This document shows, one piece after another, positions 3,931 to 60,784 of a stretch of 64,000 nucleotides of DNA. Position numbers and translations under genes: made by a program. This DNA is from Bifidobacterium sp. ESL0704 (lineage in GTDB: Bacteria; Actinomycetota; Actinomycetes; Actinomycetales; Bifidobacteriaceae): positions 2,108,001 to 2,172,000 of the forward strand of contig NZ_CP113929.1 in NCBI RefSeq assembly GCF_029392075.1, read 5' to 3'. Numbering within the stretch: the first letter of the stretch is position 1; each line of letters begins with the position of its first letter. Below the pieces are notes generated by a model. The model was not told the DNA's origin, did no database searches, and saw nothing but the letters and a program-made list of their open reading frames with translations.

Positions 3931-4041
3931 ACGTCACAAAACCTCCAGTAAGCGGTCCTACCGGAGGAAACGCGACGCTTGTAGCCTGATCAGCGTCACA
4001 AAACCGCCAACACCCAGCTCAACTGGAGGAAACGCGACGCC
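3931..4041. repeat. Family A inverted-repeat pair
   Basis: Two units of about 63 bp, each starting TCACAAAACC and ending GGAGGAAACGCGACGC. Each unit can pair CCTCC with GGAGG and CGTC with GACG. The same family forms the long 62-bp array at 46.1-46.6 kb. With the next feature it fills the 433-base gap downstream of the CYTH gene; no gene is seen here. Confidence 0.75.
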
Positions 4042-4074
4042 ACCCGGCCCGATTCACATTGTTTCGAAGGCAAT

Positions 4075-4200
4075 AGCGTCAGAAAAGTGCATTCTACAGC
4101 ACCCAAATCGCACTTTTTTGACAGCAGCGTCACAAACATGCACCTTACCCCGGCTCAGATGTATTTTTTTGACGCCAGTGTCAGAAAAGCGCACTTATAC
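4075..4200. repeat. Family B hairpin repeats
   Basis: Three tandem partial units start at about 4076, 4127 and 4178 (period 51). Each pairs GTCA-AAAAGTGC-type sequence with GCACTTTTTTGAC-type sequence. The related family at 32.76-32.93 kb has a similar 51-bp period and the same GCACTTT core. Confidence 0.65.
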
Positions 4201-4322
4201 AAGAACAATCCTCGGCCATAGGACCAGCCAAACAGAAAACGGCACGATCCCGGCTGAGCATTGAGCCGCTGCCGGGAATCGCACCGTTTGCCATACAGGC
4301 GAAAACGCAGGAAACTTTCGCC

Positions 4323-5288
4323 TCAGTACATCAGCGTCGAAAGACGACGGCGAGCGGCCCTGAGTCGCGGATCGTCGGGCTCGGGAATGACGAAGTACTC
4401 GAGCAGACGCTTGCGCACCGGTTCCAAGTCGGCCTTGTGACCAGCGGCGAGGAAATCAAGCAGACGCGAGAAGGCATCCCCGATCTGGCCGCCAATCATA
4501 TCGATATCGGCGACGGCAAGCTGCGCCTCGACATCGTCGGGGTGATCGGCTGCGGCAGCACGGACCTCACGCACGTCGGCGCTGCCGGAACGCGCCAGCA
4601 ACAGAGCCTTGGAACGCTCACGGGCGGCCAACGTGTCGTTGGGGTTCGCCTCGAGCACCTGCGCATAGGCCTCAGCGGCACCGGCATAGTCGCCATCGGC
4701 CGCAAGTTGGTGGGCCTGCTGGTGCTCAGGCGGGACCTGCTCGGCTTCATCCGCCTCCCCGCCGGCATCGGCGTCAGGATCGCCAGAATACGGCGCCGTT
4801 CCGGTAACCCCGGCCTTCTGGGCCAACTGCACGATCTGCGGCAGCAGGGTGTCGGTGATCTGCGTCAGTTCCTCGCTACTCGGCAGCCCCTCGAGAATCG
4901 GCATGGGCCGCCCGCCGATAAGCGCGAACAACGCCGGCGCACCCTTGATCTGGAAGGCTTGGGCGATACCCGGCTCCGCATTGATGTCGATGCGGGCAAG
5001 TTGCAGCTGGCCCTTCATGGCATTGACGGTATCCCCGAGCTTCTTGGCCATGGCAAACAGGCGATCGTCGGTGGAAATCCACAGCAAGAGCACCACCGGA
5101 TAGGTGGCGGAAGTCTGTAATACAGCCTGGAATGTGGACTCGGTAACGTCGATGACATAACCACCCGCGCTCGGTGCGCCGCCTGCCTGGCCCGGTTCAG
5201 ACTGCACCTGATGCTTAATCGAACTCAAATCGACCGCGCCCGCCAAGGAAATGCCCGGATTCGTCTGGGGCTTATTTGCTGCTGCCAA
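4323..5288 (-). CDS. Thioredoxin-fold/TPR co-chaperone (YbbN/CnoX-like)
   Basis: A 321-residue protein. A thioredoxin-like domain spans about 45-155 (YPVVLLLWISTDDRLF, then RIDINAEPGIAQAFQIKGAPALFAL). A helical TPR-like half follows (PPEHQQAHQLAADGDYAGAAEAYAQVLEANPNDTLAA). The CxxC redox pair is missing; the position reads WISTDDRL, so the role is holdase or co-chaperone rather than disulfide exchange. The start is TTG with AAGAAGG five bases upstream. An acidic spacer of about 30 residues links the two halves. Confidence 0.82.
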   Translation of the reverse strand: MAAANKPQTNPGISLAGAVDLSSIKHQVQSEPGQAGGAPSAGGYVIDVTESTFQAVLQTSATYPVVLLLWISTDDRLFAMAKKLGDTVNAMKGQLQLARIDINAEPGIAQAFQIKGAPALFALIGGRPMPILEGLPSSEELTQITDTLLPQIVQLAQKAGVTGTAPYSGDPDADAGGEADEAEQVPPEHQQAHQLAADGDYAGAAEAYAQVLEANPNDTLAARERSKALLLARSGSADVREVRAAAADHPDDVEAQLAVADIDMIGGQIGDAFSRLLDFLAAGHKADLEPVRKRLLEYFVIPEPDDPRLRAARRRLSTLMY

Positions 5289-5508
5289 AAGTGCCTTCTT
5301 TCTTGCTGCGTCGGCTCGACACAGGAATCGCTATCTGCCCGATATGCATATAAGCACAAGTCTAATCTACCTGTCGCCCGACCCGCAGGACACCGCTTCG
5401 CCTGACGGCGGACCCCAATACACAAGCCTCGTTACCAACAAAATATATGGACATCTCTCGCGTGATCAGGCACCCAAGTCGAGGGTTGAAGGCAGTTAGC
5501 CATCAATC

Positions 5509-5620
5509 CTGCCTCTAACCCTCCAGCAACATAGCGTTGCCCCGGGGTTAGAGGCAGAGAACACACACCAATGCCCCTAACCCTTGAAAATAGCCCGGTT
5601 ACGGCAGGGTTAGAGGCAGA
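5509..5620. repeat. Family E inverted-repeat pair, 62-bp period
   Basis: Two units place CTGCCTCTAACCC or TGCCCCTAACCC opposite GGGTTAGAGGCAG, so each can form a long hairpin. Equivalent points are 62 bp apart on both arms. They lie directly 3' of the lipoprotein gene and 5' of the co-chaperone gene. A related single unit is at 60.68 kb. Confidence 0.75.
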
Positions 5621-5654
5621 AAACAGCAACGGATCCGAAAGCGAAGACGAAAAT

Positions 5655-6662
5655 CTAGAGCGCTTCGACCTTGATCGGCTGACGTTCGGCGCCTACCGCG
5701 ACCACCTTTTTACCCGATTTGGCTGGAGGAACATAAAAAGCCAGAATGTTGACATACGTCACCTTCATGGTGCCGGTGGCCTTGCCTTGGCCGAATAACG
5801 CGCGCTCCGCGTCGCTGGCAGGCTGCGATTCACGGCCCTCACCGGCGATGCGTGTCCATTCCGAATTGATCTGCGAGACCACCAGGTCGCCGCCTTCGCT
5901 TGAACGCATCACCGCGATTCCGTTTTTAATCGGCATGAAAGCCTGAGTCTGCGTGCCATGGTTGCGTTCCATGCCCTGCTGGACCGTTGCGGACAATTTG
6001 TCAAGATCGTCACGGAAATAATCGTTGTTGAATTTCGACGCGAACTTGCTCTGCTGCCCGTGCGTCAAAACGTCCGCATACTCATCCACCGCCTGTTGCG
6101 GGGTCATCGACAATCCGGAATCATCCGGCGTCCCCATATTGGCACCGATCGAGGGGATGGCGAATTCCGGAAGCTTCGCGCCCTGGAAGAGTCTCACCAC
6201 GCCCCACAGTTTGTAATTGGTTCGCGGGCTACGCTGCGTCATCACCAAAAGCCGCTTGGACTGCTGGTCCTGGGTCGTGGTGGTGATCGAGAACACCGAA
6301 CGCGGCCAACCCGACTGGGTGGGAATGATCGTCTGAGCGATGTCCTTCGGAATAGTGGCCTTGGGATCGATCGCACCGGTTGCCTGGGCAATCGACAGCT
6401 CGCTGGTACGCACTTCAAGGGCCGGGCCGGTCACCCGCGCCGATAGTCCGTCCGGGCTTTTGGCGTTGTCCGAAGCGTCAAGAACGTCCAGCGTCGCCTT
6501 GCGTATCGCCTTTTCCTGCGCTTCGGTGATATCCGGTGTCTGGGTCGACGATTCGGCCCCCTGCGGCTTCGGGGGCCGCTCGCCGCACGCGGCAACGCCG
6601 ACCAGAGTGGCTGCAGCGATCGCCACGGCGGTCAATGCTCTCAACAGTTTCTTCGTACTCAT
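5655..6662 (-). CDS. Lipoprotein of unknown function
   Basis: A 335-residue protein with a lipoprotein signal ending LVGVAAC, so the mature N-terminus should be a lipid-modified Cys at about residue 26. The rest is a soluble extracytoplasmic domain (SGWPRSVFSITTTT, then YKLWGVVRLFQGAKLPEF) resembling lipoproteins described only as DUF families in bifidobacteria. Its ATG overlaps the stop of the upstream membrane protein by four bases (ATGA), so the two are translationally coupled and probably work together at the envelope. Function is unknown. Confidence 0.8.
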   Translation of the reverse strand: MSTKKLLRALTAVAIAAATLVGVAACGERPPKPQGAESSTQTPDITEAQEKAIRKATLDVLDASDNAKSPDGLSARVTGPALEVRTSELSIAQATGAIDPKATIPKDIAQTIIPTQSGWPRSVFSITTTTQDQQSKRLLVMTQRSPRTNYKLWGVVRLFQGAKLPEFAIPSIGANMGTPDDSGLSMTPQQAVDEYADVLTHGQQSKFASKFNNDYFRDDLDKLSATVQQGMERNHGTQTQAFMPIKNGIAVMRSSEGGDLVVSQINSEWTRIAGEGRESQPASDAERALFGQGKATGTMKVTYVNILAFYVPPAKSGKKVVAVGAERQPIKVEAL

Positions 6663-8689
6663 GCGTTCTTTTCGTCCCCATTCGCTTCTGTTGTTTTGCC
6701 GGCCTGATCCGACTCGACGTGAGCGGTGTCAGCATCGCTGTCCGTGTCTTCAGTCGACGTTTCCGAAGATAGACGGGCGAAATAATCACGGAGGTCATCG
6801 GCTGAAATCACCGTTGTTTCGGCTTGCGCATGACTTTCGTCAATCAACTCGTCGGCGCTCGAAGCCGTGCGTCCCTCGCTGTTGCGAGCATCATCCTGCG
6901 CGTTGCCGTCGGATTCGGTATCGCCCTCGGGCTGCTGAAGCGACACGGACACGTTGGCTGCCCTGAAATCGACGGCTTGTCCCTCATCATTATCGGCGTT
7001 GTCGTCGCGGTCAAGGTTATCGGCATCATGACGGTTGCCGAGACCGTCGTTACCTGCATGGCTGGCCGCGGCATGCCGCGAATGCCTACCTACCGAAGCC
7101 GACGACGCAGTGGCATCCGATTCGGATTCCTGTTCCGGTTTGCCGCAATGCCGCCCTGAATGACTCACGTTATGATGATTTTCATCAATATTGACATCTT
7201 CAGTATGCTCAGAACCGGTACTGGAAACCGTACCTGTCCCCGCCGCCATGTCGCCGGAATCCGCAGATCCCTGCGTCTGAGCCGTTTCGGTTTCACCCGT
7301 CAGGCTTTCGTCCACTTCGTCGATAGAGCCGGACCGCAAAGCCGAAGCCTCGTCCTGTTCGGAATCGCCGGCCATACGATCGTCTTGAACGGTATCGGCA
7401 ACACTGTTGTCAGCGGAGGCTTTTTCAGTGTCATCAGCAGCATTGTCAGCGTTGTCGGTATTTTCGTCGTTGTCGGTACTTTCAGTGTTGCCGGTACTTT
7501 CAGCGTTGTCGGTACTTTCAGTGTTGCCGGCGTTGTCGGCACTTTCATCATTGTCATTGACGCCAGTGCCATCATCACTATCATTCTGCATCTGCATGTC
7601 CGCCACAAGATTGCGCCTGGTCGGATCGATAATGCTGGGAGCCGACGCATCCGCGTCCGAAAGTCCGCTGTCCGTGGAAGCGGAGAGCGAAGAACCCTCG
7701 CCCGACACCACGCCTGCGCTGCCTTCGGCTGCCGACGATTCGCCCGAAGCCGCAACAGCAGAAGGACGAATCTTATGAGACGGACGATGGTTATGGCTCG
7801 AGTGCACCAGACTTCTGCGGAGCACGGCGATGCTTCCGGTCATCGCCTCGGAAATCGAAACTTCTTCGGCCTTCGCCTTCTTGCGCCTCTCACGACGCTT
7901 CGCACGCTTGCGCTTGAACGATTCGTTGGCCATGATCGCGAAAAGCGAGGCGGATAATATGGTCAGCACCACGCACACGCCGGACGCGACGAAGAACGGC
8001 ACCGCATGATTGGGAACACGATCGCGCAACCAATGCATGGTGATGGTGACGCTCGGCCGCGCCGATTTCCTCGCAGACGCGCCCATGTCGACGACCATCA
8101 CCTGATCGCTTCTCACGTCATTGAGGTTCAGCTTCATCGCGGAATCGCCGCACTTCACGCTCGTCCACATATCCGAATTCTTGAAAGCGATCTCGTCGCC
8201 GCCTGCCACGGTCTCGATCTTGGGCCCCATAGCGGTTTTGGTGGAGAGCCTCTTCCAATCATCCAGACCGGTCACTCGTACGTATTGCTGACCGGCGATC
8301 CAGCCGGTGGCGTCTTTGGCGTTGCCCAAGGCCACGCAAGTCTGGGCTGCGGATTTTGCTGTTTTGGTTTTATGGGACTTTGTTGCTTGGGCTTTATCGG
8401 ATTTGGCTGAGGCCTGTGCCCGGTCGCCGTGAGCGCTCACTTCTATATTGACGGATTTGGCGAGTAGGTTCAACATCCCGGAATCGGTGACAACGTAACG
8501 GGCTCCGGAGATCGAGGTGGTCGCACTGACCTCACGCGCAGGTTTCCAAACCGTCATGTTCAAGGCGCCCAAGACGATGAACAACACCGCGAGAAGGCCG
8601 AAAATCGGCGCGACAACGCCACGCATGATCACCGCGTGTTTAGTCGGCTTTGCGTTGTGTTTAGTCTTTTTATCCTGTTCTGAAGTCAT
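6659..8689 (-). CDS. Two-TM membrane protein with long acidic low-complexity tail
   Basis: A 676-residue protein. The first TM is at about 22-48 (VVAPIFGLLAVLFIVLGALNM), followed by an extracytoplasmic domain with two Cys. The second TM is at about 228-252 (FFVASGVCVVLTILSASLFAI), then a very basic KRKRAKRRERRKKAK stretch. The remaining ~400 residues are cytoplasmic and low in complexity, with runs built on TESTDN, NADN and GNTEST between 7430 and 7560. The start is ATG with AAGG upstream. It is coupled to the lipoprotein gene. No enzymatic motif is seen; a scaffold or envelope role is a guess. Confidence 0.75.
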   Translation of the reverse strand: MTSEQDKKTKHNAKPTKHAVIMRGVVAPIFGLLAVLFIVLGALNMTVWKPAREVSATTSISGARYVVTDSGMLNLLAKSVNIEVSAHGDRAQASAKSDKAQATKSHKTKTAKSAAQTCVALGNAKDATGWIAGQQYVRVTGLDDWKRLSTKTAMGPKIETVAGGDEIAFKNSDMWTSVKCGDSAMKLNLNDVRSDQVMVVDMGASARKSARPSVTITMHWLRDRVPNHAVPFFVASGVCVVLTILSASLFAIMANESFKRKRAKRRERRKKAKAEEVSISEAMTGSIAVLRRSLVHSSHNHRPSHKIRPSAVAASGESSAAEGSAGVVSGEGSSLSASTDSGLSDADASAPSIIDPTRRNLVADMQMQNDSDDGTGVNDNDESADNAGNTESTDNAESTGNTESTDNDENTDNADNAADDTEKASADNSVADTVQDDRMAGDSEQDEASALRSGSIDEVDESLTGETETAQTQGSADSGDMAAGTGTVSSTGSEHTEDVNIDENHHNVSHSGRHCGKPEQESESDATASSASVGRHSRHAAASHAGNDGLGNRHDADNLDRDDNADNDEGQAVDFRAANVSVSLQQPEGDTESDGNAQDDARNSEGRTASSADELIDESHAQAETTVISADDLRDYFARLSSETSTEDTDSDADTAHVESDQAGKTTEANGDEKNA

Positions 8690-8761
8690 ATTGCCTTATA
8701 TTCTACAAGGTCTATCCGATAGAATTCTGTGAACGATTATCACAGTATTACATCATTGCAT

Positions 8762-8900
8762 ACAGAGTAAATCACACTTTTAGGCCCGATTCTGTGATTT
8801 ACTCTGTAAGCTCACGACGGATACAAAGCAAATCACACTTTTGAGCCGAATTCTGTGATTTACTCTGCATCGCAGGGACGGATACAGAATAAATCACATC
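8762..8900. repeat. Family C inverted repeats, 61-bp period, in a divergent promoter region
   Basis: Two complete units pair AGAGTAAATCACA with TGTGATTTACTCT across a short loop, and a third half-unit follows. AAATCAC begins at 8769, 8830 and 8891, an exact 61-bp period. The array fills the gap between the divergent membrane-protein and FKBP genes, so it could affect both promoters. Confidence 0.8.
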
Positions 8901-8996
8901 TCCACCACGGCCAATCACCATCAGCCAGCCAGCGATATCCGCTCAGCCATCTCCGACTATGCGCTAAATCAAGGTTCAGGGCTAATGTGGTGAGCC

Positions 8997-9962
8997 ATGA
9001 GCAACAAACACACCCGAACTTTCGGCCGCATTCTCGCCGCAACCTGCGCCATCGCCCTGTCATTCGGCTTGGCAGCTTGCGAATCAAACAGCGGCAACAG
9101 CAAATCCTCAGACACCTCTGCCGGCACACAGATGGCCGGCGTCAAGGCAACCGGTGCGCTTGGCAAAAAGCCGAAAATCACCTTCCATACCCCGATGAGC
9201 GTGGTCAACAATTCCTATGTCGTGCTGCAAAAAGGCAACGGCCCGGCCATTCAAAAAAACAATCATGTCTGCATCCAGGGCATCGCATTGAACGCCAAGG
9301 ACGGCAGCGAGATGATGAGCACCTGGGAGAAGAACACACCCGACTGCTCGATGGTGATGAACGAGGACGGTACGGGCAAAACCTATTACAACGTGCTCAA
9401 AGACCAGAAGATCAACTCGACCGTCGCTTTCGGCATCAATGACCACAACAAGAACAGCACCTCATACATCATGGCGATCACCCTCGTCTCGCAATCCAAG
9501 CCGATAACGCGGGCCGAAGGCACCAAGGTGACGGACGTTCCCGCGAACCTGCCGAAAGTGACGCTCGGTGAAAAAGGTGCACCTTCCATCGATTTCAACG
9601 GTTACAAACCAGGCAACGACCTCGTCGTCCAGCCGCTGATCAAGGGCAAGGGCAAGAAGGTGGCCGCCACCGACACCATCGATGCGCATTACACCGGCTG
9701 GGTGATGGACAAGGACGGCAAGCCGTCGAAGTTCGATTCCTCGTGGGATCGCGGCAAGTCCTCGCAATTCTCGCTGCAGCAGGTCGTCGATGGTTGGAAG
9801 AAGGGCCTTGCCGGACAGACGGTCGGCTCGCAGGTGCTGTTGGTCGTTCCCCCGGATTTGGGTTACGGCAAGACCGCACAGGCCAAGATTCCCGCCAATT
9901 CGACGCTCTACTTCGTGGTCGATATACTCTACGATTACGGGCAAATGCAAGGCCAGCAGTAA
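8997..9962 (+). CDS. FKBP-type peptidyl-prolyl isomerase lipoprotein
   Basis: A 321-residue protein with a lipobox ending FGLAAC (Cys at about 28), so it is membrane-anchored outside the cell. The N-terminal half has no clear domain. A C-terminal FKBP domain (about 225-315) shows AHYTGWVMDKDGKPSKFDSSWDR split into the conserved TGW and FDSS strands, then VVDGWKKGLAGQTVGSQ, VPPDLGYG and LYFVVDIL. Its likely role is prolyl isomerisation during folding of exported proteins. The gene is single and ends before a strong bidirectional terminator. Confidence 0.88.
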   Translation: MSNKHTRTFGRILAATCAIALSFGLAACESNSGNSKSSDTSAGTQMAGVKATGALGKKPKITFHTPMSVVNNSYVVLQKGNGPAIQKNNHVCIQGIALNAKDGSEMMSTWEKNTPDCSMVMNEDGTGKTYYNVLKDQKINSTVAFGINDHNKNSTSYIMAITLVSQSKPITRAEGTKVTDVPANLPKVTLGEKGAPSIDFNGYKPGNDLVVQPLIKGKGKKVAATDTIDAHYTGWVMDKDGKPSKFDSSWDRGKSSQFSLQQVVDGWKKGLAGQTVGSQVLLVVPPDLGYGKTAQAKIPANSTLYFVVDILYDYGQMQGQQ

Positions 9963-10073
9963 AGATAAAGCGATCCTGTTCGAATTCTTGCTTCAGCGGA
10001 TGATAGCCTTGCCGGTGCACAATATCGCCAGCATTCGCTGAAGTAGGCAGGCAAAACGTCACATCTCAAAAAA

Positions 10074-10168: not shown

Positions 10169-10279
10169 CATCATGGGTTTGCGGCATTCACGGCTGGCAA
10201 TACCGCAAACCCAGAATAAGCAGCTTCCCTATCATGGGTTTGCGGCATTCGCAACCTACAAAGCCGCAAACCCATGATG
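10169..10279. repeat. Family D inverted-repeat pair, 61-bp period
   Basis: Two hairpin units pair ATCATGGGTTTGCGG with CCGCAAACCCATGAT. The second is perfect; the first has lost part of the right arm. The left arms start at 10170 and 10231, 61 bp apart. They lie 3' of nucS. Confidence 0.8.
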
Positions 10280-32756: not shown

Positions 32757-32930
32757 CAAAATGCACTTTATTCACAGACCCGGCAAAAATGTGCATTTCA
32801 GACCAGCCAAAACGCACATTATTCACAGGCTGGCGCAAAATGTGCATTTTGCACCAGCTAAAACGCACTTTATTCACAGACCCGGCAAGAACATACGTTT
32901 TAGACCAACTAAAACGCACTTTTTATGCAG
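32757..32930. repeat. Family B repeat array, about 51-bp period
   Basis: Three full units and part of a fourth, built from CACTTTATTCACAG, CCGGCA or TGGCGC, ATGTGCATTT and CCAGC(C/T)AAAACG. Opposite-facing TGCAC and GTGCA words allow hairpins. TTATTCACA, a weak DnaA-box match, recurs at 32768, 32819 and 32870. It lies between the convergent mntP and membrane-protein genes. Confidence 0.75.
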
Positions 32931-43230: not shown

Positions 43231-44217
43231 CTATTGACGAGTCTTGCCCAAATCCAACCTTTTCAACTCAGGGATATCGTCCAACGAGGCGTTACGGCCG
43301 TCCTCAGTTCGATGCTCGCTGAGGTCATCATTGGCCCGGCCATAACCTCTTTCGTTTCCTGCTTTGTCCACTTTGCTGTTGCCGACACTGTTGCCTGGCA
43401 ATCCTTCTGCCGCATCGGATTCGTTCAACGGACCGGTTTCGCCCAAAACCCCGGCATCCTCCGCTTCCGCAGCATCGGCAGCATCGGCAGCATGGGCAGC
43501 ATCGGCAGCATCGGCAGCATCGGCAGCATCGGCAGCATCGGCAGCATCGGCAGCCGCGAGATCAGACGTTTCACTGTCGTAATCCCCAAGGCCGTCGACG
43601 CTGTCAATCCCCTCATCGATATCATCAACGTCATCCAACGCGTCAGGATCGGCGTATTCCTTGGCATCCTCGAACGCGACGGCCCCGGGAGAATCTGAGG
43701 CATCAAACCTGCGGTCGTTCTTCGCCTCACGCTCTTCCTCGCGCGCGGCGATGGCCTGCAACGTGCGGGCGAAACGCATCACCTGATCGTCGGTAATCGC
43801 TTCAAGCTTCTCCTTGGTCATCACCGAACGCATGACCATACGGATATGCGCAACGTCAAACGCAGGCCCCTTCTCCCGCTTCGACTTGTTCTTCCTGGCG
43901 TAGATCTCCAAGCCGTGCTTGCCTTGACGCGCATGAACGAACGGCTTCCATTTGCCCCCGGTTTGCGAGGCGTCAAGCAGCGTCGCAAGCCTCGCTATCA
44001 AAATCGCGCTTTGCATGGTCGAAAGCCCATACCAAGAGCACATCAGATACCACGAAACCGAGCGTTCCAGCGTTCCGCCCAGATATTCGTCATATTCATC
44101 CATCGCCATCTGCATCAACAACACCCGGTCTTGAAGCCGCTTCTCCTCGGTGTCCAGATTGTCGATGACCTTGAATTTCTTTCTGCTGACGATTTTCTTG
44201 CTACGTTTCTTGCCCAT
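43231..44217 (-). CDS. Unknown protein with Ala-Ala-Asp tandem repeats
   Basis: 328 residues. A basic start (KKRSKKIVSRKKF) and a conserved-looking helical domain (about 20-165; LGGTLERSVSWYLMCSWYGLS, then FVHARQGKHGLEIYARKN) precede an acidic Asp/Glu region and about nine AAD triplets, then a polar tail. The ATG has a perfect AAGGAGG. It resembles no family I can name; a soluble regulator or scaffold is possible. Confidence 0.65.
   Translation of the reverse strand: MGKKRSKKIVSRKKFKVIDNLDTEEKRLQDRVLLMQMAMDEYDEYLGGTLERSVSWYLMCSWYGLSTMQSAILIARLATLLDASQTGGKWKPFVHARQGKHGLEIYARKNKSKREKGPAFDVAHIRMVMRSVMTKEKLEAITDDQVMRFARTLQAIAAREEEREAKNDRRFDASDSPGAVAFEDAKEYADPDALDDVDDIDEGIDSVDGLGDYDSETSDLAAADAADAADAADAADAADAAHAADAADAAEAEDAGVLGETGPLNESDAAEGLPGNSVGNSKVDKAGNERGYGRANDDLSEHRTEDGRNASLDDIPELKRLDLGKTRQ
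43471..43553. repeat. 9-bp coding tandem repeat (GCATCGGCA)
   Basis: About nine copies of GCATCGGCA inside the preceding gene encode AAD units. One copy has GCATGGGCA (His). Copy-number change would keep the frame. Confidence 0.85.
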
Positions 44218-46065: not shown

Positions 46066-46600
46066 CACAACCCATTGCACAATCCGACTTACTGGCGGAA
46101 TCATGACGCAAAATCCGCCACTCGCGTCACAAAACCACCAACAAGCAACACTACCGGAGGAAACACGACGCAAAATCCGCCACTCGCGTCACAAAACCAC
46201 CAACAACTTGGACTGCCGAAGGAAACACGACGCCAAATCCACCACTCGCGTCACAAAACCACCAACAACTTGGACTGCCGAAGGAATCACGACGCAAAAT
46301 CCACCACTCGCGTCACAAAACCACCAACAACCCGCACTACCGGAGGAATCACGTCGCAAAACACCACCTCCGCATCGCAAAACCTCCAACAAGCAACATT
46401 ACCGGAGGAAACACGACGCAAAATCTGCCACTCGCGCCACAAAACCGCCAACAACCCGCACTACTGGCAGAATCACGACGCTAAACCCACCACTCGCGTC
46501 ACAAAACCGCCAACAAGCAACACTACCGGAGGAAACACGACGCAAAACACCACCTCCGCGTCACAAAACCTCCAATAGGCAACGAAAAAGGGGACCCTGA
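46066..46600. repeat. Family A array: eight units with an exact 62-bp period
   Basis: The word (T/C)CACAAAACC or its variant starts at 46127, 46189, 46251, 46313, 46375, 46437, 46499 and 46561, exactly 62 bp apart. Each unit has a conserved part (CACGACGCAAAATC, CCACTCGCGTCACAAAACC) and a six-base variable word that alternates among GCAACA, CTTGGA and CCCGCA before an ACTACCGGAGG-type arm. The plus strand is rich in C and A and poor in G. It fills the gap between rho and the chorismate mutase gene. Confidence 0.9.
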
Positions 46601-46637: not shown

Positions 46638-48707
46638 TCAGTTGTTCATATTACTGGTGTTCTGCTTGATGATGGCCTGCAGGAAGTCACGGTTGGTCGC
46701 CGTCTTCTTCAAGCGCGGCACAATGGTCTGATATGCCTTCTCCGGCTCCATGCCGCCAAGCAGACGACGCAGGCTGTAGATGACCGCAAGCTCATCTTTC
46801 GCCGTGATGAGCTCCTCACGACGCGTGCCGGAAGCATTGATGTCAATGGCAGGGAAGAGTCGCTTATCGGCCAAATCTCGCGAAAGACGAAGCTCCATAT
46901 TGCCGGTGCCCTTGAATTCCTCGAAAATGACCTCGTCCATCTTGGAGCCGGTTTCCACCAGCGCCGAAGAGATAATGGTCAGCGATCCGCCGTTTTCAAT
47001 GTTGCGGGCGGCGCCAAAGAACTTCTTAGGCGGATAGAGCGCCTGCGCGTCGACACCGCCGGAAAGCACGCGACCAGAAGCCGGAGCGGCGATGTTGTAG
47101 GCACGGGCAAGCCTGGTCATGGAATCGAGCAGCACCACCACGTCCTGGCCGAGCTCCACCAAGCGCTTGGCACGCTCGATGGCGAGTTCGGCGACAGTGG
47201 TGTGGTCGGAAGCCGGGCGATCGAACGTCGAGGAGATGACCTCGCCCTGCACGGTGCGCTCCATGTCGGTGACTTCCTCGGGGCGTTCGTCCACGAGCAC
47301 CACCATCAGATGCACTTCTGGATTATTCGTAGCGATGGAATTGGCGATGTTCTGCAAGGTGATGGTCTTGCCGGCCTTCGGCGGGGAGACGATCAGACCG
47401 CGCTGGCCTTTGCCGATCGGCGCGACCAGATCGATCAGGCGACCGAGAATCTTGTTCGGAGTGGTCTCCTGCTTGAGGCGTTCCTGCGGATAGAGCGGGG
47501 TGAGCTTGGAGAACTGCGCGCGGTTGGCCGCATCCTCGACGCTCATGCCATTGATGGTCTCGATGGATTGCAGCGGCACGAACTTCTGGCGCTGGTTGCG
47601 GCGTTCGCCTTCGCGCGGTTCGCGGATGAAGCCCTGAACGGCGTCGCCCTTACGCAGACCGTATTTGCGAATCTGGCCCATCGAAACATACACGTCGTTG
47701 GGGCCCGGCAGATAGCCGGAAGTGCGGATGAACGCATAGGAATCAAGCACGTCGACGATGCCTGCGACGGGGACCAGCCCCTCCTTGGAATCGTTGCGAC
47801 GATCCCGCATATCCTCTTCGTTCACGTTTTCGTTGTTGTAGCGACCGCCACGATCGGCATGTTCGCCGCGATTGTCGTGGTCCTTATAGTCGTAATTGTT
47901 GCGATCGCGTCCACGCATCCTGCGCTGATGACGCTCGTTGCCGCGGTCTTCATGGTTGTAGCGATCGTTGCGGCGATTACGGCGGATGAACTCGTGACGC
48001 GGCTCTGCCTCTTTGGCATCGCCGGCATTTCCCTCGTCATTGTCGACAACCGGCAAGGTGGCAAGAATGTCATCCAGATCCCGAACCTTATTGGATTCGG
48101 TATCGTGACGCGACTGCTGCTCCGCGCGATAGTTCCTGCGATGAGTGCGGCTCTCGCCTTCCTCTGCCATCTCGTGATCGCCACGATGATGCGAGACGAA
48201 TGACCTGCTACGCCGACGAGAAGACTCTTCATCGTCGAATGCAGTGAGCTGGGAGGCGCGGCCTTCACCGCTCTGCCTAGACGAAGACCGTTGCTCGTCG
48301 GCCTTTTCGGCTTGTGCATTCGATTTCTTCAGCCGGGCATTTTCCCGACCAGCCGAAGCGTGCGTCTCGGCTTTGTCGGATTCGGCCTCACCACGAACCT
48401 CTTTGGCATCCCCGACCTTGCCATCGGGGTCGCTGCCGGAAACCGGCTGCTTGGATGCATGGTCGCTTACGGAAGTCTGTTCGTGCTCGGCATCACGATT
48501 TTCGTTCTTTTCCGCAGCCCTTTTCGGCGCGGCTTTGGGAGCACGAACCGTAACGCCACTAGGCGCTTCCCCGCCTGTTCTTGCAGCTTGAAGGGTGGCG
48601 AGCAGCTCGGGCTTACGCATCGTTGACGTGCCACGAAGCCCCATCTGTCTGGCGAGCGCTTTCAGCTCAGGCAGCTTCATATCCTCAATATTCTGGCTAG
48701 TTGCCAC
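46638..48707 (-). CDS. rho: Transcription termination factor Rho
   Basis: Hexameric RNA helicase that ends transcription. 689 residues: N-terminal SAP-like helices ([19 protein letters not shown]), then ~270 residues of low complexity rich in Arg, Asn, Asp and Glu, then the RNA-binding fold ([21 protein letters not shown]) and the ATPase with [32 protein letters not shown] and [18 protein letters not shown] large insert is usual in actinobacteria and can drive condensation. The start is GTG at 48707 with GAGGAAAGG upstream. Confidence 0.95.
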
Positions 48708-48920
48708 TATAATGTTGCCTTTCCTCGACTTCCTACGGCATTGCCCGGAAGCTATATGAAAAAGATACGGCATATTGTAAAACCGCTTATGAAATATCCG
48801 ATACCACCATGTGGTTTTCGAACTTTTCTTTAGATTACAACCGTGCCCTGACCAACCCCGCTCGGCGTGGCGAACTCACAATCCATTGCCACTTCGCATC
48901 CGCGCTCCCGCTGACTCTGC

Positions 48921-49060
48921 TGCTGGGAAACCGCAACCGGCAAACCCTCAAAGTCCGATTACCAGCACGAACACACTTTAATGCTGGAAAACCGCATCTG
49001 GCAAACCCTCAAAGTCCGATTACCAGCACGAACACACTTTAATGCTGGAAAACCGCATCC
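48921..49060. repeat. Family F direct repeat, 61-bp period
   Basis: About 2.3 copies of a 61-bp unit (CAAACCCTCAAAGTCCGATT, ACCAGCACGAACACACTTTA, ATGCTGGAAAACCGCAT). Two copies are identical over nearly the whole unit, suggesting recent duplication. CCAGC and GCTGG can pair within each. The 509-base gap between rho and the FAD oxidoreductase shows no gene. Confidence 0.88.
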
Positions 49061-49216
49061 GAACGAACAACAGATGCTGTTTCCCAGCAACAATGAGCAT
49101 GTCTTGCTCGAACAATGACAATGCAAAAGGCGGACGACCCTTGCAGATCATCCGCCTTGAATAAGAACGAACATACTGGCAGAAACCAGAACAGTCAGCG
49201 ACTAAGAGCTACGCGA

Positions 49217-54809: not shown

Positions 54810-55604
54810 ATGGAGCAGCAACAACACCATACGAACGTTGACCCGGGCGGAGTGAAACCGGTAAAATCCGCCGCGAGAACCGTACTGATTCTCGAATACC
54901 TCGCCAAACACGCGGAGTCGCCCAGCACGTTGTCCGAGCTTTCCGCCGCCATCAAGGCTCCGCGCAGCAGCACCTACGCGTTGCTGCGCACGCTGATCGA
55001 TTACGGATGGATTCGCTCTGACCACCCCGGCAACCTTTACCGACTCAACCTGCGCACGCTTCTAGTCGGGGAATCCTACCTTGACGCCGATCCCTACGTG
55101 CGTATCGTACGGCCGGTATTGGCGGACCTGAGCCGCAAAGTGACCGGAACATTCAACATGTCGCGCATGGACGACAACCGCATGGTCTATCTGCTCACCC
55201 AAGAGTCACGAAGGGATTCCACGCTGTTGCCGAGGATCGGACGCTGGCTGCCCACCTACGCCACCGGGTCGGGCAAAGCGCTGCTCGCCATTCGCGGCAA
55301 GGCCGATATCCCGGCGAAACGGCCGCCTATCACCTCGAAAACCATCACGGATCTCAAGGAACTGATGGCCGACCTCAACGCCACCAGACAACGCGGCTAC
55401 GGGCTGGAGGTCGACGAAAACAACCTCGGCTACTCCTGTGTCGCCGTGGTGCTGCGCTACCAGTCGCCGCCGCAGGACGCCATCAGCTGCACGCTGAAAA
55501 CGCGGGATTTCACAGAGAAACGGCGGCGGACCATCATCGATGCGCTGATGGAGGCGCGGGACAAAATCGAGAAGGCCGCGCCGCTGCCGGGCACCTGGTA
55601 CTGA
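54810..55604 (+). CDS. IclR-family transcriptional regulator
   Basis: 264 residues: an N-terminal winged helix (SAARTVLILEYLAKHAES, LSELSAAIKAPRSSTYALLRTL) and a C-terminal effector domain with YATGSGKALLAI, RGYGLEVDENNLGYSCVAV. IclR proteins respond to small carboxylates; by position this one should control the dehydrogenase genes on either side. The start at 54810 has AAGGAGG five bases upstream; a longer frame from 54696 overlaps the divergent promoter and is rejected. Confidence 0.88.
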   Translation: MEQQQHHTNVDPGGVKPVKSAARTVLILEYLAKHAESPSTLSELSAAIKAPRSSTYALLRTLIDYGWIRSDHPGNLYRLNLRTLLVGESYLDADPYVRIVRPVLADLSRKVTGTFNMSRMDDNRMVYLLTQESRRDSTLLPRIGRWLPTYATGSGKALLAIRGKADIPAKRPPITSKTITDLKELMADLNATRQRGYGLEVDENNLGYSCVAVVLRYQSPPQDAISCTLKTRDFTEKRRRTIIDALMEARDKIEKAAPLPGTWY

Positions 55605-55748
55605 AACGCGGCAGAAAGCTCGGCAATAAAGCTGGGCCATAGAACAAAGGCCGGTGGCGTTGCCTGCCCCAGCGCCATTCAAAAGCGCTGAATGCAGGAA
55701 GCCGCCACCGGCCTTAACAAGGAAGTTCTATCAAGCCAATCGGTTGAT

Positions 55749-56696
55749 TTACTTCTCCGCCTCCCTTTGGTCACGGGCAAGGTCTTCCATCAGGATGCGA
55801 TCGCGGGCGCGGATGGCCTCCGTGGCCTTGTCGCCGCTCCAGTCGTAGAAGCCCTGGCCGGTCTTGGCACCCAGATTGCCCTGCTCGACCTTCTCCTTCA
55901 GAGCCGGATCCTCGCCGGTGTTGTTGGCCAGATCGTCATAGAGATACTTCGAGATGTTGTCGAAGACGTCGAGGCCGCCCTGATCGATGCCCTCCAGCGG
56001 GCCGACGATGGACCAACGACGTCCGAGGCTGTACTTCATGATGTCGTCGACGGCCTCCGGGGTGGCGATGCCGCGGCGGACGATCTCGTTCTCCTCGCGG
56101 ATGACGGCCATCTGCAGGCGGTTGCCGACGAAGCCCAGCGACTCGACTTTCAGCGGCACGGCGTGCTTGCCGAGGCTGTTCATCAGGTCGACCGTGACGT
56201 CGACGGTTTCCTGGCTGGTGTTCTCGCCGGGCACGACTTCGACCAGCGGCATGAGCTGGACGGGATTCCAGTAGTGGGCCACCACGAAGCGTTCGGGATG
56301 CTTGAGGTTCTTGGCAATCGCGCTGGGGCTCAGACCGGAGGTATTGGTCGCCAGAATGGTGTCATCGTCCACCACGGCTTCGGCCTTCTCCCACGATTCC
56401 TGCTTGACCTGAAGGTTCTCGAACACGCATTCGGCGATGTAGTCGACGCCGGCAAGATCGGCGTAATCGGTTGTGGGATGCACACGCGCCATGATCGCGT
56501 CCTTGTCTTCCTTGGCCACGCCACCTTCAATCATGGTGGTCAGGTCGCGGTCAATCAGGGAAAGGCCACGCTTCAGCGCTTCGTCGGTGGCATCGACCAT
56601 GGTCACGTTATAGCCGTGAATGGCGAATTCCATCGCGGCGGCATGACCCATGGTGCCCGCTCCGAGCTGGCCGATCCTGTTTCCTATCGTTTTCAT
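55749..56696 (-). CDS. 3-hydroxyacyl-CoA dehydrogenase family protein
   Basis: 315 residues. The N-terminal NAD fold starts IGNRIGQLGAGTMGHAAAMEF. The middle has ATNTSGLSPSAIAKNL and AHYWNPVQLMPLVEVVPG, and the C-terminal domain GFVGNRLQMAVIREENEIV. The NPVQLMPLVEVV text is nearer to L-carnitine or L-gulonate dehydrogenases than to fatty-acid enzymes. The ATG follows AAAGGAG. It lies in the module with mmsA and the IclR gene and may supply the semialdehyde by oxidising a hydroxy acid (inference). Confidence 0.78.
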   Translation of the reverse strand: MKTIGNRIGQLGAGTMGHAAAMEFAIHGYNVTMVDATDEALKRGLSLIDRDLTTMIEGGVAKEDKDAIMARVHPTTDYADLAGVDYIAECVFENLQVKQESWEKAEAVVDDDTILATNTSGLSPSAIAKNLKHPERFVVAHYWNPVQLMPLVEVVPGENTSQETVDVTVDLMNSLGKHAVPLKVESLGFVGNRLQMAVIREENEIVRRGIATPEAVDDIMKYSLGRRWSIVGPLEGIDQGGLDVFDNISKYLYDDLANNTGEDPALKEKVEQGNLGAKTGQGFYDWSGDKATEAIRARDRILMEDLARDQREAEK

Positions 56697-56800
56697 TGTT
56701 AGCTCCTTTGCTTCAAACCGATTTTGTTGTTCTTGCGTTAAGGCCCATCGTTGTGGCCTTAACGCGGTCCGCAAACACTTGGCGGCACCGATAGAATCGT

Positions 56801-56841
56801 CAAGCGTTCGAGGTAATTGCCATGCTATTAAAGCGTTCGGG
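56801..56841. repeat. Paired AAGCGTTCG motif upstream of the dehydrogenase
   Basis: CAAGCGTTCGAGG at 56801 and TAAAGCGTTCGGG at 56829 share AAGCGTTCG about 29-30 bp apart, roughly three helical turns, upstream of the hydroxyacyl-CoA-type dehydrogenase. They could be operator half-sites. Confidence 0.3.
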
Positions 56842-57026
56842 AAATGCCTTATTGTTTAGCCTGCAGCATGATTATTTGACATTTCAGAAATTCATCGGTT
56901 TGTGGCAAGAAATGGCCATATCCGCTCACCCGTCAGCCAGGCCTTCAACATACCCAATATCAACGAAAGGCTGGCCGGAAGGGCATGCGCCTGTAATGAC
57001 CCAAACAAAAAGGTGAAACCCCTTAC

Positions 57027-57103
57027 GGGATTCCACCTTCATGTTTCGTACATCGCGCTCAATTAGCTACGTGAAGCCCACTGGGCTTGGTTGCAGGAAT
57101 CCC
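57027..57103. ncRNA. Candidate structured element, copy 3 (short form)
   Basis: A perfect outer stem GGGATTCC/GGAATCCC encloses TACATCGCGCTCA and the hairpin AAGCCCACTGGGCTT. It lacks the GCAAA hairpin seen in copies 1 and 2. It is adjacent to copy 2. Confidence 0.45.
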
Positions 57104-57116
57104 ACTCACCAAGCAA

Positions 57117-57219
57117 GAACTCGCACGCAAACCAAAGGTTTGCCTTCGCGCTCGTACATCGCGCTCACTGAGCCTACGAAAAGCCCACTGGGCTTTTCGC
57201 TTAACGGCTCAGCGAGTTC
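57117..57219. ncRNA. Candidate structured element, copy 2
   Basis: A perfect outer stem GAACTCGC/GCGAGTTC encloses the hairpin GCAAACC/GGTTTGC, the core TACATCGCGCTCA, and the hairpin AAAAGCCCACTGGGCTTTT with CGCTTAACGGCTCA. The right arm of the outer stem overlaps the last bases of gatB, including two bases of its stop codon, so on the minus strand it would form the 3' end of the gatCAB message. Confidence 0.5.
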
Positions 57220-58717
57220 AGCCTTTCATCTTTTTGATGACCAGAGCGCTCACGGCCTTGGCATCGGCCTGACCGTGAGTGGCACGCATAACGGCGCCGA
57301 TGATGGCGCCCATCGGCTTCATGTTGCCGCTCTTGAGCTTCTCGGCCACATCCGGGTTGGCGGCAAGCGCCTCATCAATCGCCTTGTCGAGCGCACCATC
57401 GTCGGAAACGACCTGATAGTTGTGCTTCTTGACGACCTCATCAGGGGTGCCTTCGCCGTCCAGCACGCCGGTGACGGTCTGCTTGGCGAGCTTGTCGTTG
57501 AGCTTGCCTGCGGCGACGAGCTTCTCGACCTCGGCCACGTCGGCCGGGGTGATCGGCAGCTCTTCAAGCGAGACGCTGCGCTCGTTTGCGACGCGGGAGA
57601 TCTCGCCAAGCCACCACTTGCGGGCGCCGGCAGCCGAGGCACCGTCCTTGACGGTCTCTTCGACCAGGTCGAGCGCGTCGGCGTTGATCAGGTCGCGCAT
57701 CTGCAGATCGGTCAGGTTCCATTCCTTCTGCAGGCGGGCACGACGCTCGCGCGGCATCTCCGGCATGGTCTTGGCAATCTCGTCGATGTGCTCCTGCGTG
57801 ATGTGCAGCATCACGAGGTCGGGATCGGGGAAGTAACGGTAATCGTTGGCATCGGACTTTACTCTGCCGCCAGCGGTGGTCTGCGTGGCCTCGTCCCAGT
57901 GGCGGGTCTCCTGCAGAATCTCGCCGCCCTCGTCGAGGATGGCCGCCTGACGGCGAATCTCGTACTGCAAGGTCTTCTTGATGCCACGGAACGTGTTGAC
58001 GTTCTTGGTCTCCGAACGGGTGCCGAGCTCCTTAGTGCCCTTCTTGCGCAGTGAGATGTTGACGTCGGCGCGCATGTTGCCTTGCTCCATGCGGCCATGG
58101 GAAATGCCCAGGGCGCGCACGATGTCGCGGATGGCGCGCATGTAGGCGTCCGCAATCTCCGGGACGCGGTCGCCGCCGCCCTCGACAGGCTTGGTGACGA
58201 TCTCGATCAGCGGGACGCCGGCACGGTTGTAATCGACCAGCGAGTGGTCCGCGCCCTCGATACGGCCGTCGGCGCCACCAACGTGGGTGTTCTTGCCGGC
58301 GTCGTCCTCGATGTGGGCGCGCTCGATCGGCACGCGGAAGGTGGTGCCATCGTCGAGCTCGACGTCGAGATAGCCGTTGCCGTTGGTCGGCTTGTCGAAC
58401 TGCGAGATCTGATAGTCGCGCGGCATATCCGGGTAGAAGTAGTTCTTGCGGGCGAACTGGCTCCACTCGTGGATCTCACAGTGCAGCGCCAGACCCAGCT
58501 TGATCGCGAAGTCGACGGCGGTCTTGTTGACCACCGGCAGGCTTCCGGGCAGGCCGAGGCTCACCGGGGTGAGCTCCGTGTTCGGCTCCGCGCCGAACTC
58601 CTCGTGCGCCGGGCAGAACAGCTTGGTCTGCGTGCACAGCTCGACGTGGGTTTCCAGACCGAATACCGGGTCAAATTCCTTGACGGCATCGGAATACTTC
58701 ATCAATTTTTCAGCCAT
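57218..58717 (-). CDS. gatB: Aspartyl/glutamyl-tRNA amidotransferase subunit B
   Basis: Kinase/tRNA-binding subunit that activates Glu-tRNA-Gln and Asp-tRNA-Asn. 499 residues: [59 protein letters not shown], and the C-terminal YqeY-like helices. The ATG follows AAGGAGAAAC. It comes 24 bases after gatA in the operon. Confidence 0.97.
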
Positions 58718-58741
58718 GATTTGTTTCTCCTTGCCGTCCGA

Positions 58742-60280
58742 TTACTTTGCGCTCTTGAGCCACGGGGTCTTGAGGCTCTGCCAGACCGGGCCGCCCCACT
58801 GCTCCTCCAGGGCCGCCTCAAGCGCGGCGGCGGGCTTGTACATCTGCTCGTCGTGCTTCTGCGGGGCCATGAACTGGAAGCCCACGGGCAGGCCATCGTC
58901 GGAAAGCCCGGCGGGGATGCTCATCGCGGGGGTGCCGGCCATGTTCGCCGGAATCGTGGCGATATCGCTCATGTACATCGTCAGCGGGTCGTTCATCTTC
59001 TCACCGAACTTGAACGCGGTGGTCGGGCTCGTCGGCGCGACCAGCACGTCGGCCTTCTCGAACGCCTTGTTGAAATCGTCGATGATCAGGGTGCGGACCT
59101 TCTGCGCCGAACCGTACCATGCATCGTAGTAGCCGGCGGAAAGGGCGTAGATGCCAAGGATGATACGGCGCTTGACCTCGTCGCCGAAGCCGGCCTCGCG
59201 GGTATAGGCCATCATGTTGGCGGCCGTTTGCGGCACACCTGCCGGCGGCATCACACGCAGACCGTAACGCATGCCATCGTAGCGGGCCAGGTTGGAGCTG
59301 ACCTCGGACGGCATGATGATGTAGTAGGCGGCGAGCGCGTAATCGAAGTGCGGGCAATCGACCTCGACCACTTCGGCACCCATGTCTTGCAGAAGCTTGA
59401 CCGCTTCATTGAAACGGGCCTCGACACCGGGCTGATAGCCATCGCCGCCGAGTTGCTTGACAAGTCCGACCTTCATACCCTTGAGGTCGCGCTTGTAGCC
59501 TTCGCGAGCAGCCTTGACGATTGGCGGAACGTCCATCGGAATGGACGTGGAATCACGCACGTCGTGGCCGCCGATGATCTCCTGCAGCAGCGCGGAATCA
59601 AGCACGTTGCGCGAGACCGGGCCGATCTGGTCGAGCGAGCTCGCCATGGCGATCGCACCGAAACGGGAAACGCCACCATAGGTGGGCTTGACGCCGACCG
59701 TGCCGGTCAGGCTGCCGGGCTGACGAATCGAACCGCCGGTATCGGTGCCGAGCGCAAGCGGGGCCTCGAATGCGGCGACCGCGGAAGCGGAACCACCGCC
59801 GGAGCCACCAGGGACACGGGAGGTGTCCCAAGGATTATGGGTCGGGCCGAACGCGGAGTGCTCCGTGGAGGAACCTTGTGCGAACTCATCAAGGTTGGTC
59901 TTGCCCAAAAGCGGCATGCCCGCGGCCTTGAGCTTGGTGATGACCGTGGCGTCGTACGGCGGGATCCAGCCTTCGAGAATCTTCGAAGCGGCGGTCGTTT
60001 CGATACCCTTGGTAACGATCATGTCCTTGATGGCGATCGGCACACCGGCGAGCTCCGGCAGGCCCTCGGTCTCGCCTGCGGCATTCTTCTTATCGAAGGC
60101 GTCGGCCTGAGCGCGCGCCTCATCGGCGGATACGTGCAGGAACGCATGGATGTCCGGTTCGGCGGCATCGATGACGTTCAGCTCGGCATCGACCAGCTCG
60201 CGGCTGGAGACTTCCTTGTTGCGAATCTTCTCCGCCATCTGTGCGGCGGTGAGCTTCACCAATTCATTTGCTTCGGCCAT
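58742..60280 (-). CDS. gatA: Aspartyl/glutamyl-tRNA amidotransferase subunit A
   Basis: Amidase subunit that frees ammonia from glutamine. 512 residues with the amidase Ser-Ser-Lys triad: Lys in [10 protein letters not shown], and the two Ser in [14 protein letters not shown] and [12 protein letters not shown]. Its ATG shares one base with the gatC stop (TGATG). Confidence 0.97.
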
Positions 60281-60579
60281 CAGGCTTCACCTCCGAGGAT
60301 GCGCGGGGCTACGAACATACCGTTCTCCGTGGCTGGGGCTCCGGCGAGCGCGTCCTCGCGGCTCAACGGCTTTTCGGGGACGTCGGGGCGCAGATACGCC
60401 TCGAGCGGAACCGGGTTGGCAGTAGGTTCGACGTCATCGGACGCGACTTCCTGCACCTTGTTGATGGAATCGGCGATGACGTTCAACTCGCCTTGCATGC
60501 GGGTCGCTTCCTCGTCGGTGAGCGCGATCTGGGCAAGTTGGCCCAGATGCTCGACTGTATCTCTTGTGAAAGTAGGCAT
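60280..60579 (-). CDS. gatC: Aspartyl/glutamyl-tRNA amidotransferase subunit C
   Basis: 99 residues, the small subunit that holds GatA and GatB together: [20 protein letters not shown], then [28 protein letters not shown]. The start at 60579 matches the family MPTF-type N-terminus. TACAAT lies seven bases upstream with no convincing ribosome binding site, so the operon mRNA is probably leaderless. Confidence 0.93.
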
Positions 60580-60586
60580 AGCCTCA

Positions 60587-60592
60587 ATTGTA
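60587..60592 (-). promoter_or_regulatory. -10 hexamer TACAAT of the gatCAB promoter
   Basis: TACAAT on the minus strand, seven bases before the gatC ATG; transcription would start at the start codon. Confidence 0.5.
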
Positions 60593-60675
60593 TGAGTCAT
60601 CTGTGACGTTCAGATGACGGCGTCCGGACATAAAAACCGATTCCGACGACAAATAAATCGACACTGCCATACCAA

Positions 60676-60784
60676 CTGCCTCTAACAGGTCAATCCTGCC
60701 TCCCGACGTAGGTTTTCGAAACCCAAAACACACGCCAAGAGGCAGGAATGACCGGATAGGGGCACAACTGGCCTGTTAGAGGCA
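60676..60784. repeat. Family E nested inverted repeat
   Basis: Outer arms CTGCCTCTAACAGG and CCTGTTAGAGGCA and inner arms TCCTGCCTC and GAGGCAGGA form a nested hairpin of about 109 bp. The CTGCCTCTAAC word is shared with the pair at 5.5 kb. The surrounding 396-base gap has no gene. Confidence 0.7.

Follow-up and report, generated by a model that had tools for sequence, protein, structure and literature searches.

Repeat arrays in the window and their periods

The DNA analysed here (the window) is a stretch of 64,000 nt from Bifidobacterium sp. ESL0704 (contig NZ_CP113929.1, positions 2,108,001 to 2,172,000, forward strand), and its arrays are all given on the + strand. The leftmost consists of two family A units with a period of 62 bp (3931..4040, +), followed by family B (4076..4175, +; two units with a period of 51 bp, then a further half unit), family E (5510..5618, +; two units, period 62 bp), family C (8761..8898, +; two units and a half, period 61 bp) and family D (10170..10278, +), whose alternating arms recur every 61 bp and whose unit is readable in two registers. 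A family B-like array with a period of 51 bp lies at 32757..32922 (+). Further on, a gene at 46638..48773 on the - strand, which from its sequence we presume to be rho, is flanked downstream by a family A array of about eight units of 62 bp (46090..46583, +) and upstream by two and a half family F units with a period of 61 bp (48921..49061, +). Finally, a degenerate inverted repeat at 60677..60787 (+) was assigned by eye as family E-like. Every array named in the original prediction was recovered by Tandem Repeats Finder and by a scan for exact 11-mer lags: A (3.93 and 46.1 kb) and E (5.5 kb) repeat every 62 bp, C (8.76 kb), D (10.17 kb) and F (48.9 kb) every 61 bp, and B at 32.76 kb every 51 bp.

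Using rho as the anchor, we found that the array content of the flanking gaps differs among species: the family A array is not present as an array in the downstream gap of any of 11 relatives, and F-type arms occur in the upstream gap of 2 of the 11. The relatives compared, which include no close strain, offered no exact empty site for the arrays, and no target-site duplication is visible by eye. Rfam families in 144 kb comprise two tRNAs and one msiK RNA, none of them at the arrays, so we rejected a known RNA element.

The 61–62 bp periodicity is real and genome-wide. In a sample of 864 kb (the window and 40 further 20 kb stretches), in which arrays with a dominant lag of 30–150 bp were tallied, including those inside open frames, and neighbouring lags served as background, 33 of the 102 short-lag arrays fall at 60–63 bp and none at 55–59 bp; others fall at 51–52 (4 arrays), 64–68 (3), 71–73 (4), 102–104 (6) and 120–126 bp (8). 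The concern that the shared value was chance within a broad spread of periods is therefore not borne out at this scale. The period predicted to be common to the families is recurrent but is not the sole value, as periods of 51, about 72, 82 and 93 bp are found too; nor are the families' words wholly unrelated, as had been claimed, since by eye most arms have a common TGCnnnn(n)AAA frame. Arrays sit in called intergenic gaps in 61 of 67 cases; 6 of 61 arrays lie in divergent gaps, a somewhat lower share than such gaps make up overall (98 of 543). Their presence in divergent gaps at all led us to reject terminators, and a single regulon was rejected as well, given that some family H arrays adjoin unrelated housekeeping genes (8 proteins scanned).

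Unit geometry and spacing in helical turns

The geometry of the unit is fixed: it is a pair of inverted 14–17 bp arms held at a constant distance in eight families (for example, the loop is 16 bp in 105 of 106 family A units). Loops and spacers hold their length although their sequence diverges. All 15 spacers in families G and J are 14 bp long, and the loops of these two families are nearly as unlike within a locus as between loci (0.41 and 0.43, respectively, versus 0.34 and 0.37). Families G and J also cross-match each other. In A, C and D the loops are more similar inside one locus, and some arrays do gain copies by tandem duplication. In A, B, C, D and F, concordant changes between the two arms are no more frequent than under permutation, on which ground base-paired hairpins were rejected as the constraint; an excess was detected in G (0/1000), J (p 0.015) and E (p 0.035).

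The spacing is quantised in whole helical turns, with 51 bp corresponding to five turns and 61–62 bp to six. Family F has periods of 61–62 (4 loci), 71–72 (6 loci), 81.5–82 (2 loci), 93 and 116 bp and, taken by itself, fits best at 10.8 bp. At 52 gene-linked loci of the genus the dominant lag is 51–54 bp in 25 cases and 59–64 bp in 23, the rest being 45, 73, 82 and 84 bp. These periods fit 10.4 bp steps with R 0.82, a value reached by none of 2000 random sets, although many of the loci are kin by descent and, the lags falling in two main clusters, the circular fit is nearly equal at 10.0 (0.81) or 11.0 bp (0.80). Among the mechanisms offered in the original prediction, helical-turn spacing is the one that the data favour, with periods near 51, 61–62, 72 and 82 bp and lengths kept despite diverged sequence.

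The linked AbiEi-like/DUF559-like proteins

The genome encodes eight paralogous proteins that combine an AbiEi-like part with a DUF559/restriction-nuclease-like part, all from genes outside the window, and each gene lies between arrays of one repeat family. In seven of the eight gene copies arms of the same family are found on both sides, giving a near-diagonal table of genes against families, and the eighth copy likewise has its own repeats on both sides. A RAYT-type or other repeat-linked enzyme had been suggested as a target for searching; the RAYT type was not found (the Y1_Tnp profile, PF01797, has no match in the genome; as a control it is positive in 5 of 14 known genomes), and a different repeat-linked protein family was found instead. 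For families E, K and H no cognate gene was found in this genome.

The PADLOC AbiEi model matches 44 of 51 family members, while Pfam AbiEi hits are weak, and hhalign aligns the family with AbiEi-DUF559 proteins over its full length (99.2%, 254 columns). Direct Pfam hits to the restriction-nuclease-like part are weak (6 of 51 members, at best 0.03), PF04480 has no match in this genome, and no solved-structure relative was found by sequence. Residues E204, D240, E254, D256 and K260 are kept in 50–51 of the 51 members. The profile match and the conserved acidic residues thus support a predicted relationship of this part to the DUF559/restriction-nuclease-like proteins. In the source records these proteins are named "hypothetical protein" or "CTP synthase". 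No AbiEii toxin gene adjoins any of the eight genes (the sole PF08843 match in the genome, at 375647-376411, is far from all of them), so we rejected a toxin-partner reading. At the A and D loci the gene diverges fast compared with its neighbours.

The association recurs throughout the genus. The protein family was matched in 97 of 112 Bifidobacterium genomes, and left and right flanks have at least 30 common windows at 38 of 60 loci, versus 6 of 179 mismatched pairs; after removal of three duplicate loci the figure is 36 of 57. Some loci have no common flank repeats (e.g. L157, L159, L160 and L167, with 0–2 windows). Arms and protein change together: arm similarity tracks protein similarity (Mantel r 0.42–0.48, 0/2000), with similar arms in 11 of 21 close protein pairs versus 4 of 645 others, and matching arms recur at orthologous loci in other species. 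In three close pairs (N-terminal identity 0.68–0.79) the called arms are dissimilar. Arm similarity follows the C-terminal and N-terminal parts alike, and therefore the DNA-binding domain is not singled out. The arms of the orphan family J match those that flank the G-gene orthologue of two other species, and J looks like a relic of changed specificity. In one genome (G004) no gene was detected by profile, yet a 51 bp array of the B type is present, as are matches of the G type; it is possible that these are relics, but this explanation is ad hoc.

Many genomes of the order carry family members, and flanking arrays outside the genus are occasional rather than the rule at the loci examined. Among 30 DUF559 loci outside the genus, 8 have at least 30 flank windows in common and 9 have an array-like lag; in a second set of 20 family loci, at least 30 windows are common to both flanks in 9, compared with 9 of 80 mismatched pairs, one of the nine loci (L268) being a short-locus artefact. 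Outside the genus the association is only suggestive, with L211 and L218 as two clear examples. The one pattern used to search viral contigs yielded no confirmed relative of the protein, and two distant matches came from plasmid records; on this basis a phage or plasmid origin of the protein was rejected.

A proposed repeat-plus-protein system and its known counterparts

We think it probable that the arrays are rows of putative double-stranded DNA sites for these AbiEi-like proteins with a DUF559/restriction-nuclease-like C-terminal part, one paralogue per repeat family. Each unit presents two facing 14–17 bp arms with centres about three helical turns apart, and the units are spaced by whole turns, usually five or six and in some cases seven or eight, which would line up protein pairs along the same face of the helix. 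Each repeat family would be assigned to the paralogue whose gene lies between its arrays, the remaining copies being dispersed in intergenic gaps, and a locus that changed its specificity would leave its old arrays behind as relics. Known AbiEi proteins bind tandem inverted repeats (PMC7319586). We infer that the protein binds the arms and cuts the DNA, and that the repeats spread through such cutting and its repair. By analogy, the whole can be read as a partnership of the REPIN/RAYT kind with an unrelated protein at its core, which suggests a type of repeat-plus-protein system not yet described. More tentatively, it could represent a bacterial class of repeat spreading, in which an AbiEi-like/restriction-nuclease-like protein recognises and disperses its own helically phased paired sites via DNA cutting and repair, with up to eight orthogonal pairs per genome, and in which turnover of specificity at fixed places leaves fossil arrays, as J appears to be.

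An unlikely alternative is that the arrays serve the host as operators or chromosome-organising sites; the proteins would then be regulators or architectural factors with a secondary nuclease-like part, and the spacing would be kept for cooperative binding. Fixed spacing and conservation of arms at dispersed loci would agree with this, as would the autoregulation of AbiEi proteins on tandem inverted repeats (PMC7319586); the relative rarity of arrays in divergent gaps, the variable content of the rho-side gaps among species and the almost invariant nuclease-type residues argue against it. We give still less credence to a restriction- or addiction-like defence, in which the nuclease-like protein would attack DNA and the arrays restrain it or mark self: both protein parts fit such a role, as does a gene that at the A and D loci has diverged faster than its neighbours, but the genes have no adjoining toxin partner (the one AbiEii gene lies at 375.6 kb) and no viral-contig relative was confirmed. 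Hairpin slippage or unequal exchange alone, with the period set by hairpin plus gap size, is very improbable. It would explain why A, C and D units are alike inside a locus; however, slippage as the generator, one of the mechanisms first suggested, is not supported, because the arms of A, B, C, D and F lack covariation and G and J loops have diverged at constant 14 bp spacers, and it also sits poorly with one family having several periods one helical turn apart and with the tie between arrays and a protein gene. REPIN/RAYT elements driven by a Y1-type transposase would share the plan of inverted ~16-mer pairs, mostly intergenic and beside a protein gene (PMC3116915), but the genome has no Y1_Tnp match (control 5/14) and, barring an enzyme too diverged for the profile, their probability is negligible.

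The proposed AbiEi-like system is nonetheless close in layout to REPIN/RAYT, for which Bertels and Rainey 2011 (PMC3116915) describe ~16 bp repeats that are dispersed and mostly extragenic, form inverted pairs at characteristic distances as well as tandem clusters, and flank a linked protein gene; inverted pairs at a characteristic distance, mostly intergenic, are found here too. It differs in having an AbiEi/DUF559-like linked protein, with no Y1 transposase found, in its helical-turn spacing, in arms mostly without covariation and in the eight gene–repeat pairs of one genome. AbiEi autoregulators likewise combine an AbiEi-like protein with paired tandem inverted repeats: the Rv2827c operator has four 23 bp repeats with gaps of 13, 4 and 13 (PMC7319586), by arithmetic a period of 63 bp. 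Unlike in those autoregulators, repeats here are also found on the downstream side of the gene and elsewhere across the genome, the protein carries an additional DUF559-like part and there is no AbiEii neighbour; relative to the type IV toxin-antitoxin system AbiE, the AbiEi-like antitoxin component is thus found and an adjacent AbiEii is not. DUF559/REase_MTES_1575 proteins with an AbiEi-like N-terminus match our family by profile over the full length. CRISPR type I-E arrays can also have a 61 bp period (e.g. L102), but here the whole unit repeats, arms alternate in orientation, loops within a locus are partly alike and arrays are dispersed, and the arrays do not consist of constant repeats with unrelated spacers. 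MIRU/VNTR and BOX-type elements are short intergenic tandem repeats of 50–100 bp, for which we know of no linked protein or quantised spacing. To our knowledge, RAYT is the enzyme known for the dispersed palindromic repeats of bacteria. If another, unrelated protein family were paired one-to-one with dispersed repeats throughout a genus, unexplained intergenic repeats in many genomes would gain a candidate enzyme; the orthologous sets of proteins with their arms allow a DNA-recognition code to be tested directly, and in relic arrays the changes of specificity would be logged.

Repeat families and the geometry of their units

All arrays named in the original prediction were located with the periods it had claimed, and the finding of repeat arrays is real. 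The genome of Bifidobacterium sp. ESL0704 is a single contig of 2,415,815 bp, of which the window covers positions 2108001-2172000; a sample made up of the window and 40 further 20-kb stretches (864 kb in all), in which we recorded dominant lags between 30 and 150 bp, yielded 102 arrays, with 33 lags at 60–63 bp, none at 55–59 bp and 3 at 64–68 bp. When sorted by their arms (~16 bp), the arrays of ~61–62 bp period fall into families A, C, D, E, F, G, J and K and the palindromic family H, while family B has a period of 51 bp. The family H palindrome CTTGGTGCACCAAG, repeated every 61–63 bp, adjoins unrelated genes (L017:9295-9434, L042:9224-9361, L043:1165-1428, L047:920 and 8533, L135:14780, L141:18540; L numbers denote loci examined), and no cognate gene for it was found among these and the other loci examined. 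Short in-frame tandem repeats within open frames (window positions 43469-43554 and 7443-7556; 9 bp and 18/36 bp units) have no relation to the arrays. One window gene has five relatives among named records, all from Bifidobacterium, with 68–87% protein identity.

Each unit consists of two inverted arms and a loop. Across 1,064,000 bases, with any loop of 6–29 bp accepted, the distance between facing arms is constant within each of the eight families measured: 16 bp in A (105 of 106 units), C (13/13), G (20/20) and J (24/25; the counts of G and J overlap), 18 or 19 bp in B (65/66), 13 bp in D (6/6), 19 bp in E (14/14) and 15 bp in F (24/24). Neighbouring units are separated by spacers of 14 bp in A (79/84), G (5/5) and J (10/10), 13 bp in C (7/8), 13–15 bp in E (5/5) and 2 bp in B (37/43); among eight neighbours from different families, three are 13–14 bp and five 35–116 bp apart. 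Identity between loci is 0.71–0.86 for arms and 0.34–0.51 for loops, against 0.24–0.30 for shuffled loops. In G and J the loops differ nearly as much within a locus as between loci, and thus the equal spacing of these families is not explained by recent duplication.

Spacing in helical turns

The period rule of the arrays is one of whole helical turns. Family F spacers measure 14–15 bp (n = 4), 24–26 bp (n = 4), 34–35 bp (n = 3), 67 and 71 bp; its arm pattern has 139 matches in the whole genome, versus 20 for the reversed pattern. Among the matches listed, and with one period taken per locus (two loci show three different steps, of which the first was used), the F periods are 61–62 bp (4 loci), 71–72 bp (6), 81.5–82 bp (2), 93 and 116 bp, with a best fit of 10.8 bp for this family by itself. 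Dominant lags at 52 gene-linked loci of the genus are 51–54 bp (25 loci), 59–64 bp (23), 45, 73, 82 and 84 bp; the circular fit is best at 10.4 bp (R 0.82; 10.0 gives 0.81 and 11.0 gives 0.80), and none of 2000 random sets equalled it. Because related loci in the genus sample are not independent, family F in one genome provides the cleaner evidence for phasing. Such quantised spacing would be explained if proteins bind the arms along one face of the helix.

The linked protein family

The repeat arrays are tied to a protein family whose gene copies lie outside the window. When 1012 open frames were compared all against all, a four-member family emerged, with genes located between arrays of B, G or A, or adjoining an 84 bp array; a profile search extended this to eight copies in the genome, none of them inside the window. 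We counted arms up to 800 bp away on either side of each gene and found B arms (4/10) at 91387, G (3/3) at 1949240, A (8/7) at 2209693, where B arms (2/6) are a cross-match, F (4/5) at 1499169, D (6/4) at 707173, C (4/3) at 1300146 and M (2/2), an inverted repeat of 64 bp, at 1807308, while the gene at 1522773 has no arms of named families and its own repeat twice per side.

The association extends across the genus. Profile matches (E-value 0.001 or better, a few of them weak) occur in 97 of 112 Bifidobacterium genomes. Left and right flanks share at least 30 common windows at 38 of 60 loci versus 6 of 179 mismatched pairs (36/57 without three duplicate loci), and 49 of 57 loci show an array-like lag in the 600 bp flanks. 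Among 37 loci with called arms, similar arms were found in 11 of 21 protein pairs whose N-terminal identity was 60% or higher versus 4 of 645 others; the N-terminal, middle and C-terminal regions of the protein correlate with the arms to a similar degree. Stretches sampled from relatives show 61–62 bp arrays with a related arm in ESL0784, which has two gene copies; in ESL0682 and in genome G004 no gene copy was found and short-lag arrays are few, though G004 still carries a B-type 51 bp and a K-type 61 bp array. ESL0784 also contains a CRISPR-like array with a 28 bp repeat and 61 bp period (L102:1-1115), which we take to be of type I-E. Outside Bifidobacterium, repeats flank AbiEi-DUF559-type genes on both sides in L218 of G133 (40 bp, CCGAAGTCTGGGACTTCGG; 637-704 and 1735-1838) and L211 of G153 (62 bp, 31 by eye; 1325 and 2773-3090).

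Family members have weak Pfam matches to AbiEi and DUF559, PADLOC AbiEi models match 44 of 51, and hhalign against four DUF559-matching proteins of other genera gave 99.2% over 254 columns; E204, D240, E254, D256 and K260 are conserved in 50 or 51 of 51 members. No NCBIfam model fitted any of four members tested. Many members are named "CTP synthase" in their source records, and the Pfam and NCBIfam scans found no match to that family in the members tested. The sole AbiEii match in the source genome, at 375.6 kb, is the nearest to the linked genes. Members of the protein superfamily occur far more widely than the arrays do, since the profile finds matches in 198 of 248 genomes from the order. 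Three paralogous small proteins (~120 residues; L132:17962-18342, L132:19491-19859, L011:9613-9972) look, by eye, like HTH proteins.

Possible turnover and spread, and likeness to known operators

Comparison of flanking DNA reveals that several linked genes share their chromosomal place between species. B arms occupy the B place in five genomes and a variant in a sixth, all with a 51 bp lag; three genomes share the same arms at the C place; at the A place the inner half of the arm is altered in G111 and G114. The G place carries G arms in the source genome, G112 (ESL0800), G110 and G040, and in G115 and G117 TGCGTTGAAAAGCAGA, the arm of the source genome's orphan family J, which among the gene loci examined occurs only at the loci of those two genomes and on one side of the source genome's G gene. 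A, C, D and F arms were each found only at their own place among these loci. DNA identity to relatives is 71–72% for the gene at the A place (flanks 87% and 77%) and 65% at the D place versus 82–85% for its flanks; the C and G places of ESL0800 show 91–92% throughout, without this contrast. Beside the putative rho gene, which lies in the window between an A and an F array, the gap on the A side lacks the array as such in 11 of 11 relatives examined, although L248 and L241 carry another arm, GCGTCRCAAATGCAA, in this gap; in the gap on the F side, F-type arms occur in two relatives and in none of the other nine.

Sixty-one of 67 arrays lie inside called gaps (37 codirectional, 18 convergent and 6 divergent, compared with 344, 101 and 98 among called gaps), a distribution that tolerated spread fits slightly better than regulation. 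Among the matches listed for the A/B stretch, 68 of 69 follow one rule, with the minus strand used at places below 0.84 Mb and the plus strand at places above 1.73 Mb. The replication strand seems to be tracked by A/C-rich loops and arm centres; this strand pattern is probably mutational skew, not a choice of orientation. As to how the repeats spread, our preferred guess is that copies might reach other places through cutting followed by repair.

In titles and abstract beginnings of the open-licence literature we found no paper linking these proteins to repeats, although the link may have been described earlier, for instance in subscription papers or preprints. PMC7319586 describes binding of AbiEi to a pair of 23 bp inverted repeats separated by 3 bp, and of Rv2827c to four such repeats with gaps of 13, 4 and 13; the arrays described here resemble these operators, but are longer.
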